Below the pieces are notes generated by a model that saw nothing but the letters and a program-made list of their open reading frames with translations, did not search any database and was not told the DNA's origin. Position numbers and translations under genes: made by a program. A stretch of DNA of 34,093 bases from Bacteroides sp. (lineage in GTDB: Bacteria; Bacteroidota; Bacteroidia; Bacteroidales; Muribaculaceae), in the NCBI GenBank assembly GCA_014801785.1, contig JAAVDN010000018.1, positions 40,189 through 74,281 of the forward strand, given 5' to 3'. This document shows, piece after piece, positions 1,223-16,470 of the stretch. Every line of letters starts with the position of its first letter. Within the stretch, counting starts at the first letter, position 1.

Positions 1223-1924
1223 ATGGACTCAGAGAAAATAACGAGAGTAAATCTTTTTGTTGAAAGTCAGCAGAATCTCTCTCAGAGGGATATAGCATTA
1301 CGGGCAGATATAGATCCCACCAACTTTAGCAAGATGATTAATGGTAAACAGACCATAACTGATAAAACCTTAAAGAAACTCGCTGCGAATTTTCCGGTCA
1401 GCCTCAAATGGCTGCTGACGGGTGAGGGTGAGATGCTGAACGAGGGTGTGGAATCCCGACCGGCCGAAGAGACGCGGGGGCTGGAGCAGAATATGGAATA
1501 TGAGGACTACCGGATGGTGCCGCTCATCAATATCGACAGTGTAGGCGGAATCCATTCCGACAACTCCATATTGGTATCAGAGCAGTATGTGATAAAGATG
1601 ATGCCCTTCACAGAAGCCCGCGAGGGAGATGTCGCTATTTTACACTCGGGTAACTCGATGGCTCCTATGATTCCGGCAGGCTCTGCCCTGCTTATCCGGG
1701 AGGTCCCGGACTGGCAAGAGTATTTCGGCTATGGCAATATCTTCGTCATCTGGCTAAAGGATGGACGGCGAATAACCAAAGAGGTACGCCGATACGACCC
1801 GGATCCAAAGAAATACGTCTGGTGCATCTCCTACAACCCGGATGTCGCCGACGAGGAACTTCCTCGCTCTATGATACGAGGGGTATGGAAAGTCATCAAA
1901 TATATCGCTGACTTTGGCTGGTAA
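1223..1924 (+). CDS. XRE-family / peptidase S24 (LexA/CI-like) transcriptional repressor
   Basis: This 233-residue protein has an N-terminal helix-turn-helix (about residues 16-66: SQQNLSQRDIALRADIDPTN, then FSKMINGKQTI and the tail LKWLLTGEGEM) and a C-terminal S24 domain (about 98-230). The serine of GNSM (Ser145) and the lysine of RRITKEV (Lys186) match the Ser-Lys dyad of self-cleaving repressors. The usual Ala-Gly cleavage site is not obvious; SVGG (106-109) is in the right place. The start ATG lies directly after an operator half-site, with no clear Shine-Dalgarno. In this setting it should hold the element quiescent and respond to DNA damage by autocleavage. The family call is strong; induction by damage is inferred from the family. 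Confidence 0.92.
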   Translation: MDSEKITRVNLFVESQQNLSQRDIALRADIDPTNFSKMINGKQTITDKTLKKLAANFPVSLKWLLTGEGEMLNEGVESRPAEETRGLEQNMEYEDYRMVPLINIDSVGGIHSDNSILVSEQYVIKMMPFTEAREGDVAILHSGNSMAPMIPAGSALLIREVPDWQEYFGYGNIFVIWLKDGRRITKEVRRYDPDPKKYVWCISYNPDVADEELPRSMIRGVWKVIKYIADFGW

Positions 1925-1991
1925 AGAAATAAAATCAAAATGAAGTAAGAACAATTTCGACGGAGCGCCCGCCTGAACTCGTTATATAATT

Positions 1992-2023
1992 GTCGCGTCC
2001 CTCGCGGGCGCGTGAATTGAAAC
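1992..2023 (+). CRISPR. Solo type I-C-like CRISPR repeat (orphan, no array)
   Basis: A single 32-nt unit has the exact layout of type I-C (Cas5d-class) repeats. It reads GTC, a 6-nt stem arm GCGTCC (1995-2000), loop CTCGC, the other arm GGGCGC (2006-2011, with one U-G pair), then the conserved tail GTGAATTGAAAC. No second copy is seen within spacer distance on either side and no cas gene is in the window. It lies between the repressor and the 72-aa gene of an integrative element, in the leader of the operon that ends with the integrase. A TATAATTG box (1985-1992) abuts it. Solo repeats in mobile elements are known as RNA anti-CRISPR (Racr) candidates. A relic, or a Cas5d cleavage site in the mRNA leader, are alternatives. 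Confidence 0.75.
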
Positions 2024-2069
2024 CTGAAAAGCGCCCGCGCGCGAACATACAAATAATAAAACGAAAACC

Positions 2070-2288
2070 ATGCAAACAGACAATATCAGCCGAGCAGAAC
2101 TACAACGGAATCTCGACGAAGCATTTTTCAAAGGAGTAGGAAGTGTCATAGACTTCCTGCCATCATTTCCCTCCACACGCTTCCGCACACCTGTCGATGA
2201 CCGAAACGCCGTGGAAGCCGATTGGGGTCGCGTCGGCGACGCCCTCCGAAAAGCAACCGCCATAATCCGCTCCCAAAACCCTCGATAA
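2070..2288 (+). CDS. Small hypothetical protein of the integrative element
   Basis: This is a 72-residue soluble protein. It has a helical N-terminal half (SRAELQRNLDEAFFKGVGSV) and a C-terminal half with STRFRTPVDDR and WGRVGDALRKA, with no signal peptide or membrane segment. It begins 46 bp after the solo CRISPR repeat and ends 1 bp before the DUF2335 gene, so the two are surely co-transcribed. The family is not known to me. In this position it could be a regulator or excisionase-like protein, but no winged-helix pattern is visible and I do not assign one. Confidence 0.7.
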   Translation: MQTDNISRAELQRNLDEAFFKGVGSVIDFLPSFPSTRFRTPVDDRNAVEADWGRVGDALRKATAIIRSQNPR

Positions 2289-2289
2289 A

Positions 2290-2754
2290 ATGGAAGAAAA
2301 CACACCCTCCCTGAACAATGAGGCCTCCCAGGATGTGCCGCAGGAAGTCTCGCAGGTGCTTGAAGAGCTTACCCCTGACGAGCGCAGCCTCATCATCCAG
2401 GCAATAAAGCAAGAAACGTTCAGAGGGCCAATTCCGCATCCGGATATCCTAAAAGGGTACGAAGCGATAAAGGAAGGATTCGCAGAACGAATCGTCCAGA
2501 TGGCCGAGCAGGAACAGGAAAGCCGGATAAAGGTCAACGAGACAATCGTCAACGGAACCCTGAAAGCCAACTCTCGCGGACAGTGGATGGGATTCGCCAT
2601 TGCTGTCCTTTTTCTCGGAGCTTCCGTCGCGCTCGCTTTATACGGGCAATCCGTGGTCGCGGGGATATTGGGCGGAGGAACGATCGTCTCCCTCGTTGCC
2701 ATCTTCGTCACGAACAGACACGGCGCAAGCCGTACCGAAGACAAGCACCCATAG
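2290..2754 (+). CDS. DUF2335 family predicted membrane protein
   Basis: This 154-residue protein carries the recognisable DUF2335 core FRGPIPHPDILKGYEAIKEG followed by FAERIVQMAEQEQESR (about residues 44-79). Two adjacent membrane segments follow, about 101-119 (GFAIAVLFLGASVALALYG) and 121-142, with a short basic tail. DUF2335 proteins are found widely in prophages and integrative elements but have no settled function. The two-helix membrane anchor with a cytoplasmic, charged N-terminal domain would suit a sensor or a superinfection-exclusion factor; that is speculation. It sits between the 72-aa gene (1-bp gap) and the integrase (32-bp gap) in one operon. Confidence 0.85.
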   Translation: MEENTPSLNNEASQDVPQEVSQVLEELTPDERSLIIQAIKQETFRGPIPHPDILKGYEAIKEGFAERIVQMAEQEQESRIKVNETIVNGTLKANSRGQWMGFAIAVLFLGASVALALYGQSVVAGILGGGTIVSLVAIFVTNRHGASRTEDKHP

Positions 2755-2786: not shown

Positions 2787-4058
2787 ATGACTCCCATATT
2801 ACGGCGCGTAACCCTGACCGTCGAGAAAAACCAATACCTGCGTATGCAGATCTCATGGAACAGCCATCGAATCCGCATATCCCTCGGCGTCTCTATATCC
2901 AAACTCGACCAGAGGGGACGTCCTACATGGGACGGCATGAGGGTGCGCAAAAATACTTTCCACGGCCCCCGAAAAATCCCAGCCGCTACAATCAACGCCA
3001 TAATAACCGCTTTCGAGAGACGTGTCGACGAGGCGTTCCTGAATTTCGAGCTGACAGACTCCATCCCGACCCCGCAACAGCTCAAAGCTATACTAAAAGA
3101 TAAACCCCTCAAGTCTGACAAGAACCGGATCTCTACCCTATTCCTCGATTTCCTGCGCGACGGTGAGAAAACAAGACAATGGAGCGAAAATACCACAAGA
3201 TCCGTCCGTAATGTCGGTAACCTTATCAACAAATACCTACCCGACGCAACCCTCGAAGACCTCACCCCCGACACCATCCCAAACTTCATCTCATACCAGG
3301 TTAACCATCGCCTATCCTCCGACAATATCCCCGCCGGACAACCCGGCTATTCCAATTCCTCAGCCCTCAAAAACGCCGGTATATTGCGATGGTTCCTAAA
3401 ATGGGCAACATACAAAGGGCTCATCCCCGAAAAACAATGGAAACCTCTCCGCATCGACGTCAAACGAATCCGACGCCCGGTCATCTATCTGACATGGGAA
3501 GAACTGACACGCCTTGAAAAACTACCCCTCGAACCATCCTCCGAACTCGACCGAGCCCGCGACTTCTTCATCTTCTGCTGCTTCTCCTCGCTAAGATACT
3601 CCGACGCAGCCGCCCTCCGCAAATCCGACATCCGACAAAACAGATTCGCCGTCACAACCCAGAAGACATCAACAAACATCCTCATCGACCTCAACGACCA
3701 CTCCCGAGCAATCCTCGAAAAATACCGCGACACCGACTCCCCCTACGCCCTGCCGCGAATCACCAACAACCGCCTGAACCACCTCCTCAAAGAGCTCGGC
3801 CGCATAGCCGGCATCGACACCCCCGTCCGCATCTCCCAATACTACGGCCCCCAACGCATCGACCGCACCCTCCCCAAACACGAACTGCTGACCACCCACT
3901 GCGGCCGCCGCACCTTCATCTGTCAAGCCCTAATGCTCGGCATCCCGCCCCAAGTCGTCATGAAATGGACAGGCCACGCCGACTACGCCGCCATGCGCCC
4001 CTACATCGAAATAGCCGACCAGACCAAAGCCGACGCCATGACCCTCTTCAACCGCTAA
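2787..4058 (+). CDS. Tyrosine recombinase / integrase (phage-integrase family)
   Basis: This 423-residue integrase, from the ATG at 2787, has the usual Bacteroidota layout: an N-terminal arm-binding domain (about 1-105), a SAM-like core-binding domain (about 110-215) and a C-terminal catalytic domain (about 230-415). The catalytic set is complete: Arg270 (SSLRYSD), Lys293 (TQKTS), His371 and Arg374 (THCGRR), His397 (TGHADY) and Tyr406 (MRPYIEI). A longer in-frame reading from 2583 overlaps DUF2335 and lacks homology, so it was rejected. Codon use is strikingly C/A-rich and G/T-poor. It is the last gene of the element and presumably catalyses integration and excision at a site nearby. Confidence 0.93.
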   Translation: MTPILRRVTLTVEKNQYLRMQISWNSHRIRISLGVSISKLDQRGRPTWDGMRVRKNTFHGPRKIPAATINAIITAFERRVDEAFLNFELTDSIPTPQQLKAILKDKPLKSDKNRISTLFLDFLRDGEKTRQWSENTTRSVRNVGNLINKYLPDATLEDLTPDTIPNFISYQVNHRLSSDNIPAGQPGYSNSSALKNAGILRWFLKWATYKGLIPEKQWKPLRIDVKRIRRPVIYLTWEELTRLEKLPLEPSSELDRARDFFIFCCFSSLRYSDAAALRKSDIRQNRFAVTTQKTSTNILIDLNDHSRAILEKYRDTDSPYALPRITNNRLNHLLKELGRIAGIDTPVRISQYYGPQRIDRTLPKHELLTTHCGRRTFICQALMLGIPPQVVMKWTGHADYAAMRPYIEIADQTKADAMTLFNR

Positions 4059-15080: not shown

Positions 15081-15595
15081 ATGACAGAACAAGAGCTGGC
15101 AGGAATGATTTGGAATATCAAGGAGATTATCCGTGGTGTCTATGATGATACAGAAGTAGAGAATGTGATTCTACCGTTTACTCTTCTGCGTCGCCTCGAT
15201 TGTGTGTTGCAAGATAGATATGAAGAACTCTATGAGCAATACCGTGCTTTCCCCGATCCCGATTCTATTCCCGTCTCGATCGTAACGACCTGCTCTTTCA
15301 AGTGACGGAAAGTTTTATCAATAACGCCGACCTCCATCCTGATAAGATGGATAACGCCATGATGGGTACTATCTTTGAAATTATTATTCGCAAGTCAAAA
15401 GAGATGACCAATACTAATATATTTGTACCGTTACCACCCACTGGTGAGATTGAATTGATAATTCGATATCCTGATAAGAAATGTGCTGAAATTGACGGTT
15501 TGAAAGCAAAGTTAGTGAAAAAGCGCGAGACACTGAAAGAGCTTCGGCAAGCTATCATCTCCGAGGTTGTGACCGGCAAAAGAAAAGTAGTATGA
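15081..15595 (+). pseudogene. Collapsed type I restriction-modification locus (hsdM start fused to hsdS end)
   Basis: The first frame (15081-15305) encodes an HsdM N-terminus, MTEQELAGMIWNIKEIIRGV then TEVENVILPFTLLRRLD, and stops after 74 codons. The next frame continues HsdM as FINNADLHPDKMDNAMMG and TIFEIIIRKSKEM from before 15302, so a frameshift lies near 15250-15290. At about 15415-15425 it jumps into the end of an HsdS subunit (DKKCAEIDGLKAK...LKELRQAIISEVVTGK). The methylase catalytic core and the specificity domains are missing, so neither subunit can work. It overlaps the Fic gene start by 4 bp. The locus is AT-rich relative to its neighbours. Confidence 0.85.
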
Positions 15596-16470
15596 AGGAT
15601 AAAATAAACAAAATATCAATAAGATTTTTTAAAGATAGAGAGGTGCGTGCCTCCTGGGATGAAACTAATTCCCGCTGGCTTTTCTCTGTGGTGGATGTTA
15701 TTGCAATCCTTACAGATAGTAAGAATCCTTCCAATTATTGGAAGGTGATGAAACATCGTCTCACTAAATCCGGAAGTGAGTTGGTTACAAAATGTAACCA
15801 ACTCAAAATGGTTGCTTCCGATGGGAAACGCTATCTTACCGACTGTCTTCCACAAGAGGATCTTCTGACACTAATTGAGTCTACCCCCAGCAAGACTGCA
15901 ATCCCATTTGCAAAATGGCTGATTACCGGAGAAGATCAACTTGACAGTAAAAGTAGAGATAAAGCTTATCGATTATGGGATAGTTCTTTAATGCAGACTA
16001 TTGAGGTAGGTAGTATTAAGGGCTTACAGCAAATACACTCTTTCCTATTCGGAGGGCTATATGACTTCGCAGGTAAAATCAGAACTAAAAATATTGCTAA
16101 AGGTGGTTTTCAGTTTGCAATGGCTCAGTTTCTGAATCAATCCCTTTATGTGATTGAACGGATGCCGGAAACAACTTTCGATGAAATAATAGACAAATAT
16201 GTGGAAATGAACGTAGCCCATCCTTTCATGGAAGGGAATGGGCGTAGCACCCGAATATGGCTTGACCTTATGCTGAAACGTTCGCTGAAGAAATGCGTAG
16301 ACTGGAGTAAGGTGGATAAAAATCAATATATGGAAGCTATGCGTGAAAGCGTCATGAATTCAACAAAAATAAAAGCACTACTTGAGACTGCCCTTACAGA
16401 CCTCATCAATGACCGGGAACTGTTTATGAAAGGAATTGACTATTCATACTATTACGAACAAAACGATTAA
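15592..16470 (+). CDS. BRO-N / Fic domain protein
   Basis: This 292-residue protein has an N-terminal BRO-N/KilA-like part (about 8-112: RFFKDREVRASWDETNSRWL, FSVVDVIAILTDSKNPSNYW, LIESTPSKTAIPFAKWL) and a C-terminal Fic domain (about 120-290). The Fic motif HPFMEGNGRSTR (210-221) has every catalytic residue, including His210, so it should transfer AMP or another nucleotide moiety from its substrate to a target protein. No clear inhibitory S/TxxxE[G/N] helix is seen. Genes of this type are often inserted in type I RM operons; here it starts within the hsdS remnant's stop (ATGA). It is intact while the RM genes are ruined, so it may be kept for itself. Confidence 0.88.
   Translation: MKDKINKISIRFFKDREVRASWDETNSRWLFSVVDVIAILTDSKNPSNYWKVMKHRLTKSGSELVTKCNQLKMVASDGKRYLTDCLPQEDLLTLIESTPSKTAIPFAKWLITGEDQLDSKSRDKAYRLWDSSLMQTIEVGSIKGLQQIHSFLFGGLYDFAGKIRTKNIAKGGFQFAMAQFLNQSLYVIERMPETTFDEIIDKYVEMNVAHPFMEGNGRSTRIWLDLMLKRSLKKCVDWSKVDKNQYMEAMRESVMNSTKIKALLETALTDLINDRELFMKGIDYSYYYEQND

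Follow-up and report, generated by a model that had tools for sequence, protein, structure and literature searches.

The window, which is the whole stretch of 34,093 nucleotides that was analysed (C18:40189-74281), carries a rightward plus-strand series made up of an S24-type repressor, a CRISPR-like repeat unit, a 72-aa ORF, a DUF2335 gene and a tyrosine integrase; window coordinates are used throughout.

1223-1924, plus strand: phage repressor with an HTH and an S24 peptidase domain (domain matches)
1964-1972, plus strand: upstream antisense segment AGCGCCCGC; GCGCCCGC at 1965-1972 is complementary to repeat positions 2004-2011
1985-1992, plus strand: TATAAT / TATAATTG, resembling a promoter -10 (-7) element and abutting the repeat (by sequence; no -35 partner in a sigma-70 scan)
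1992-2023, plus strand: solitary type I-C-like CRISPR repeat (sequence, stem pairing and 30/32 identity to the G136 array repeat)
2030-2044, plus strand: downstream antisense segment, in which GCGCCCGCG (2031-2039) is the predicted partner of 2003-2011 and CGCGA (2040-2044) that of 1993-1997
2070-2288, plus strand: 72-aa small protein, first of a pair with DUF2335 (alignment with relatives)
2290-2754, plus strand: DUF2335 membrane protein (profile matches to PF10097 and phrog_3996, the latter annotated as a moron membrane protein)
2787-4058, plus strand: tyrosine integrase (ATG at 2787 chosen as the start; the mechanical ORF starts at 2583)

A preliminary description had placed the unit in the leader of a mobile-element operon and had taken the carrier for an integrative element. 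The neighbours it named (repressor, 72-aa ORF, DUF2335 and integrase) were all recovered, but the carrier required correction. Upstream genes on the contig encode a tape-measure protein, a tail fibre, a portal, a head morphogenesis protein, a primase/helicase, a helicase and a Gp2.5-like protein; because tail, portal, head and replication genes share the contig, the element is, by its gene content, a siphovirus-like prophage.

The small ORF and DUF2335 form a recurrent pair. When the 72-aa protein was aligned with five relatives, F19, G22, G24, S25, D44, D51, W52 and V55 were common at 22-28% overall identity; protein searches of 111 genus genomes recovered it from its own genome only, and DUF2335 relatives were present in 12 of 397 family genomes, its own included. 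PADLOC returned no match for the 72-aa, DUF2335, 146-aa or 87-aa proteins. The interval between repressor and integrase varies between related prophages: only 3 nt separate the two ORFs in L190, and a 202-aa ORF lies between them in L192, in which the repressor was judged by position and by eye only. Because of this variation, the unit and the gene pair look like the cargo of a variable slot. Elsewhere in the window, a long inverted repeat (TATATTTGCACTCGCAA / TTGCGAGTGCAAATATA) surrounds a tandem TTTCCCATGTGG at 1074-1160, between the divergent repressor and 146-aa genes, and is probably the phage operator region; in the host part, 15081-16470 holds a type I methyltransferase fragment and, after it, a Fic-like protein with a match to PADLOC PDC-S04.

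The repeat at 1992-2023 is 32 nt long (GTCGCGTCCCTCGCGGGCGCGTGAATTGAAAC) and is laid out as GTC-GCGTCC-CTCGC-GGGCGC-GTGAATTGAAAC, with a 3-nt head (1992-1994), two stem arms (1995-2000 and 2006-2011) around a 5-nt loop (2001-2005), and a tail (2012-2023). The six stem pairs are G-C, C-G, G-C, U-G, C-G and C-G, so that the full type I-C architecture initially proposed (3-nt head, 6-bp stem with a U-G pair, 5-nt loop, tail) can be read directly. In its own genome the unit is the sole match of a type I-C search pattern, GTCGCNNCCNNNNNNGGNGCGTGRATTGAAAY; a chance match was ruled out, since the pattern has 21 fixed bases and its reversed control gave no match among the rows listed for the relatives, family and order scans. 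The unit is intergenic, lying between the repressor stop at 1924 and the ORF start at 2070, and is overlapped by mechanical minus-strand ORFs only. Rfam yielded no match in the window.

As the preliminary description had also stated, there is no second repeat: the best 32-mer within 300 nt on either strand has 15 mismatches in ungapped comparison. A degraded array was excluded by the absence of a partner repeat over this distance, and the locus is not a virus-borne mini-CRISPR array, which comprises at least two repeats around a spacer. Neither is it a type I-C CRISPR-Cas locus, there being a single repeat and no match for Cas1 or for Cas8c/Csd1 in its own genome (2.05 Mb, 75.6% complete). At 75.6% completeness the absence of cas1 and cas8c from the host is provisional. 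The type I-C-like repeat at 1992-2023 is confirmed as real and as standing alone, within a mobile element.

A comparison with the type I-C arrays of related genomes, suggested at the outset, showed that such arrays exist within the same genus. The pattern matched in 9 of 101 genomes of the relatives set (8 of its 61 same-genus genomes, own included), in 27 of 397 family-set genomes and in 12 of 393 order-set genomes; the relatives, family and order sets overlap. The nearest array repeat, in the same-genus genome G136, is identical to the unit at 30 of 32 positions (94%) and throughout the tail, and the two deviations of the unit fall in the loop or give the U-G pair. Whereas the prophage has one repeat, the G136 array has 38, beside Cas2, Cas1, Cas4, Cas7, Csd1, Cas5d and Cas3-like genes; a same-genus type I-C locus with a 94%-identical repeat implies that cognate hosts exist. 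The G136 Csd1 ORF covers only the C-terminal half of its profile (positions 274-559 of 559), and the gene may therefore be broken, or interrupted in the assembly. The exact 32-nt repeat was absent from the genome contig records searched; once two positions of the loop and one of the tail were freed, genome contigs gave three matching stretches: arrays in a Bacteroidales MAG (L085) and a Bacteroidetes MAG (L087), and a lone unit in a Treponema MAG (L086).

Genomes with a single pattern match were read one by one, and the unit proved solitary in just two of them, the own genome and G663. The G663 unit (L231 2410-2441), a second solitary type I-C unit in a Bacteroidales genome, has a 7-nt antisense complement upstream and adjoins ORFs that by eye resemble restriction-modification genes. 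Further copies were present in G377 and G324 from the family search, and G734 and G527 from the order search proved to be arrays; the G522:C20 unit, flanked by palindromic sequence and adjacent to cas-like ORFs, sits where its contig stops and is probably an assembly end. Another contig-end sequence, L230 9545-9729, is palindromic around a single type I-C repeat, probably also an assembly end effect, and could mimic a solitary unit.

The SRUFinder rules for solitary repeat units (SRUs), as given in PMC10651486, require identity and coverage of at least 90% each, a score of at least 41.1 bits and no partner within 100 bp. These thresholds were applied against the array repeats of G136, G063, G403 and G785: with the G136 repeat the unit gave 93.75% identity, 32/32 nt covered and 48.1 bits, exceeding every threshold, while the G063 and G403 repeats gave 90.6% and 40.1 bits, under the 41.1-bit cut-off, and the G785 repeat 87.5%. 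The unit is likewise solitary, intergenic and carried by a mobile element, as SRUs are. Compared with the SRUs of viruses and plasmids, as portrayed in PMC10651486 and PMC11656645, it shares the numerical rules, against one array repeat, and differs in that its expression and host match are putative.

SRUs are a class that includes RNA anti-CRISPRs (Racrs), and 2,103 of them were counted on viral sequences in the survey described in PMC10651486. Our two viral scans (6 + 94 stretches, from which 86 loci were returned and read) yielded 67 solitary type I-C units, of which 8 lay close to the end of a contig; another 112 units had a second copy within 300 nt, a second copy being defined as same-strand, ungapped and with fewer than 12 mismatches. 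Solitary type I-C units are common in viral contigs, and because they are so frequent the kind is not new. Half of a non-redundant viral set (26/52) lay inside a mechanical ORF of at least 60 aa, a crude and unreliable count. Among the viral loci, L041 (3642-3863) is a mini-array of about four type I-C repeats with 30-nt spacers; L090 and L092 belong to one viral contig (IMGVR_UViG_3300031673_000079) with three solitary units, two of which have near-identical upstream sequence; and the contigs of L116 and L160 are alike before a solitary unit and abruptly different right after it, as if recombination broke there. The literature searched contained no Racr work naming Bacteroidales; the main text of PMC10651486 has no word beginning "bacteroid", and its supplementary tables may hold Bacteroidales entries.

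The completeness and solitude of the unit, its carriage by a phage and the matching type I-C systems in the same genus lead us to consider it, tentatively, a candidate RNA-based CRISPR inhibitor, a Racr-like decoy of a temperate phage, this being the single most likely function. The repeat would be carried by the lysogenic transcript from the repressor or by a short transcript of its own; Cas5d and Cas7 of a host type I-C system would mistake it for pre-crRNA and bind it; lacking a spacer-repeat partner, the resulting product would tie up effector proteins in dead complexes, so that the prophage and its relatives would be spared from interference. The place of the unit, in an interval whose genes vary among related prophages, is consistent with this reading. 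Racrs often lie near acr genes, which is an enrichment and not a requirement. A precedent is RacrIC1, a prophage-borne type I-C unit of Bifidobacterium that inhibited a type I-C system according to PMC10651486. Both are solitary type I-C repeats in prophages, co-directional with their neighbours; in contrast to the present unit, RacrIC1 (from a Bifidobacterium pseudocatenulatum prophage) follows an acrIC5 homologue and was experimentally tested (PMC10651486), whereas the unit at 1992-2023 has no identified acr gene alongside it and is in a Bacteroidales host, between flanks predicted to mask its hairpin.

Several observations weigh against the Racr-like decoy, beginning with the cas1 and cas8c genes unmatched in its own, incompletely assembled genome. 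Another is the lack of a homologous leader: a DNA search with 1925-2300 against 111 genus genomes found none, and returned, beyond the own locus, repeat-spanning matches and short matches of 24-53 nt with E values no better than 4e-4. Among the repeat-spanning matches, those in G136, G147, G003, G015, G045 and G101 are arrays according to the pattern scans, and those in G131, G145, G103 and G110 are array-like by spacing alone. No type I-C unit was present in 18 other fetched relatives of the neighbouring genes (L067-L084, a set that excludes the DUF2335 relative L032), nor, as judged by exact tails (ATTGAAAY/GTTGAAAY), in six regions of related prophages. With no homologous leader found and the unit in 0 of 18 fetched relatives, there is no sign of selection on the unit. 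For the prophage itself, a megablast of 20 kb against a phage collection gave no match and blastn gave two records with 4-5% coverage, in the integrase; in viral contigs the primase had no match, and relatives were found for the integrase (4), the repressor (1) and DUF2335 (1). Primase relatives occurred in 6 of 110 other genus genomes at 42-54% identity.

The lack of relatives, and also the masking described below, would be accounted for if the unit were a relic, that is, a repeat captured by recombination from a type I-C array or mini-array and now functionless, with its antisense segments left over from the rearrangement of repeat DNA or G+C-rich simply by chance. One copy is known, the leaders of all fetched relatives are without it, the native fold is predicted to hide the hairpin, and the same-genus family search gave no other solitary unit that survived reading. 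Nonetheless, all 32 positions fit a working type I-C repeat, the deviations from G136 being confined to the loop or the U-G pair, and a partial copy is absent within 300 nt, so capture would have to have been clean and recent. We regard a relic as somewhat unlikely.

Spacers offered the Racr-like decoy no support, as none matched the prophage among 422 intervals of the fetched arrays and 37 intervals of G136. The best interval matches were perfect over 14 nt or ran to 17-18 nt with a single mismatch, and a control host stretch of the window gave a similar result (14 nt); a 21-nt G136 match was a repeat fragment within an oversized interval and not a spacer. A mini-array or CreTA-like arrangement, meaning repeat-guided self-regulation, was rejected since the 35 nt after the repeat have no protospacer-like match: within C18:189-74281, with the self match dropped, the longest seed was 8 nt without and 7 nt with TTC, the PAM used for type I-C matching.

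The TATAAT at 1985-1990 is one mismatch from TAnnTTTG, the Bacteroidales promoter motif, and as it abuts the repeat, a transcript starting from it would begin inside the repeat. A sigma-70 scan of 1000-2400 gave four sites versus 1.8 expected, none of them at TATAAT, and provided no convincing promoter for a short transcript of the unit, which again counts against the Racr-like decoy. The transcript more probably comes from read-through of the repressor, in which case both antisense segments would be part of it.

GCGCCCGC is found at 1965-1972 and 2031-2038, on either side of the unit, and in both places is antisense to 2004-2011, the 3' stem arm of the repeat. These copies are part of a direct repeat, AGCGCCCGC..GAAC (1964-1978 and 2030-2046), whose copy starts (1964 and 2030) are 66 nt apart, close to the type I-C repeat-spacer period. 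The downstream pairing, of 9 bp and 5 bp around a 5-nt bulge, is predicted to replace the type I-C hairpin. In predicted ensembles the isolated repeat forms the hairpin with a mean probability of 0.48; adding the upstream flank lowers this to 0.0002, and adding the downstream flank, or both flanks, to below 0.00001. For 52 other non-redundant viral units, folded with flanks of equal length, the median was 0.93; one of them was at or below 0.01, five were below 0.05 and ten below 0.3. Among 351 array units the median was 0.97, with 7.4% below 0.05. The isolated repeat is itself slightly less stable, at -11.6 kcal/mol versus medians of -12.8 and -13.4 for the others. Both the stability and the predicted loss of the hairpin next to either native flank speak against the Racr-like decoy; since the flanks are predicted to favour another fold, activity would call for a short RNA, a processed one, or one that a Cas protein opens.

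The same segments raise the possibility of a masked unit or RNA switch, in which they close the repeat until it is opened by a type I-C Cas protein or by a change in where the transcript starts or ends; opening would release a Racr or alter the expression of the downstream 72-aa, DUF2335 and integrase genes. In its favour, perfect complements as long as the upstream one (8 nt) and the downstream one (9 nt) occurred in 1 and 0, respectively, of 351 array units with two flanking spacers; among the 52 viral units, a shuffle p of 0.02 was reached by none downstream and by one upstream; and the downstream duplex energy was equalled or beaten in none of 59 viral units, one coming within 1 kcal/mol. 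The upstream duplex, however, was equalled or beaten in 13 of the 59, and against dinucleotide-preserving shuffles the longest complements reached only p 0.017 upstream and 0.026 downstream. Shuffled flanks also masked the hairpin (probability at or below 0.01) in 56% of 400 trials downstream, 42% with both flanks and 10% with the upstream flank alone; masking comes easily because a G+C-rich block adjoins a G+C-rich repeat. The whole-leader fold had a z-score of only -1.8, with 14 of 200 shuffles folding as well, and a single sequence makes covariation impossible. Masking is thus a firm prediction and not a demonstrated adaptation, and could follow from local base composition.

An analogy exists in type VI systems, where pairing in leader-repeat hairpins blocks Cas13b binding and processing, as described in PMC13187072. 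The likeness lies in antisense sequence beside the repeat whose pairing is predicted to prevail over the repeat's own hairpin; the differences from the type VI-B case (PMC13187072) are the other CRISPR type, the lack of an array and the predicted segments on both sides, which are not known to be conserved. On balance we judge a masked unit or RNA switch improbable. Quite improbable is the particular form of a masked, switchable Racr, which would stay closed in the lysogenic transcript and deploy the decoy or the downstream genes only in a type I-C host or upon a shift of transcript ends.

The RNA anti-CRISPR proposed in the preliminary description thus retains its basis in a solitary type I-C unit in a mobile element, the SRU rules and same-genus arrays. 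Its simple constitutive form is weakened by the hairpin predicted to be absent with native flanks, which leaves room for a masked or switchable Racr. The predicted fold also bears on the suggestion that cleavage of the polycistronic RNA at the repeat by host Cas5d adjusts the downstream genes. The repeat does lie in the leader of a co-directional gene set, but the native flanks are predicted to abolish the hairpin needed as substrate in a long transcript, and Cas1 and Cas8c were unmatched in the 75.6%-complete genome; a plain Cas5d-cut leader site is not upheld, and we consider it very unlikely. Least likely of all is a role at the DNA level, with the repeat as a Cas1-Cas2 decoy or landing site, or the GCGCCCGC/GCGGGCGC copies as a protein-binding palindrome. 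Within the prophage part of the contig, GCGCCCGC is confined to its two sites at this locus, which speaks for such a role, but by eye the upstream sequence had no evident likeness to the type I-C array leaders examined.

If the unit acts as a Racr, RNA-based CRISPR inhibition would extend to a Bacteroidales prophage with cognate type I-C systems in the same genus, and functional masking would offer a first indication that decoys of this sort are open to regulation. Otherwise, the unit would be one more example in a class of already frequent solitary viral type I-C units.
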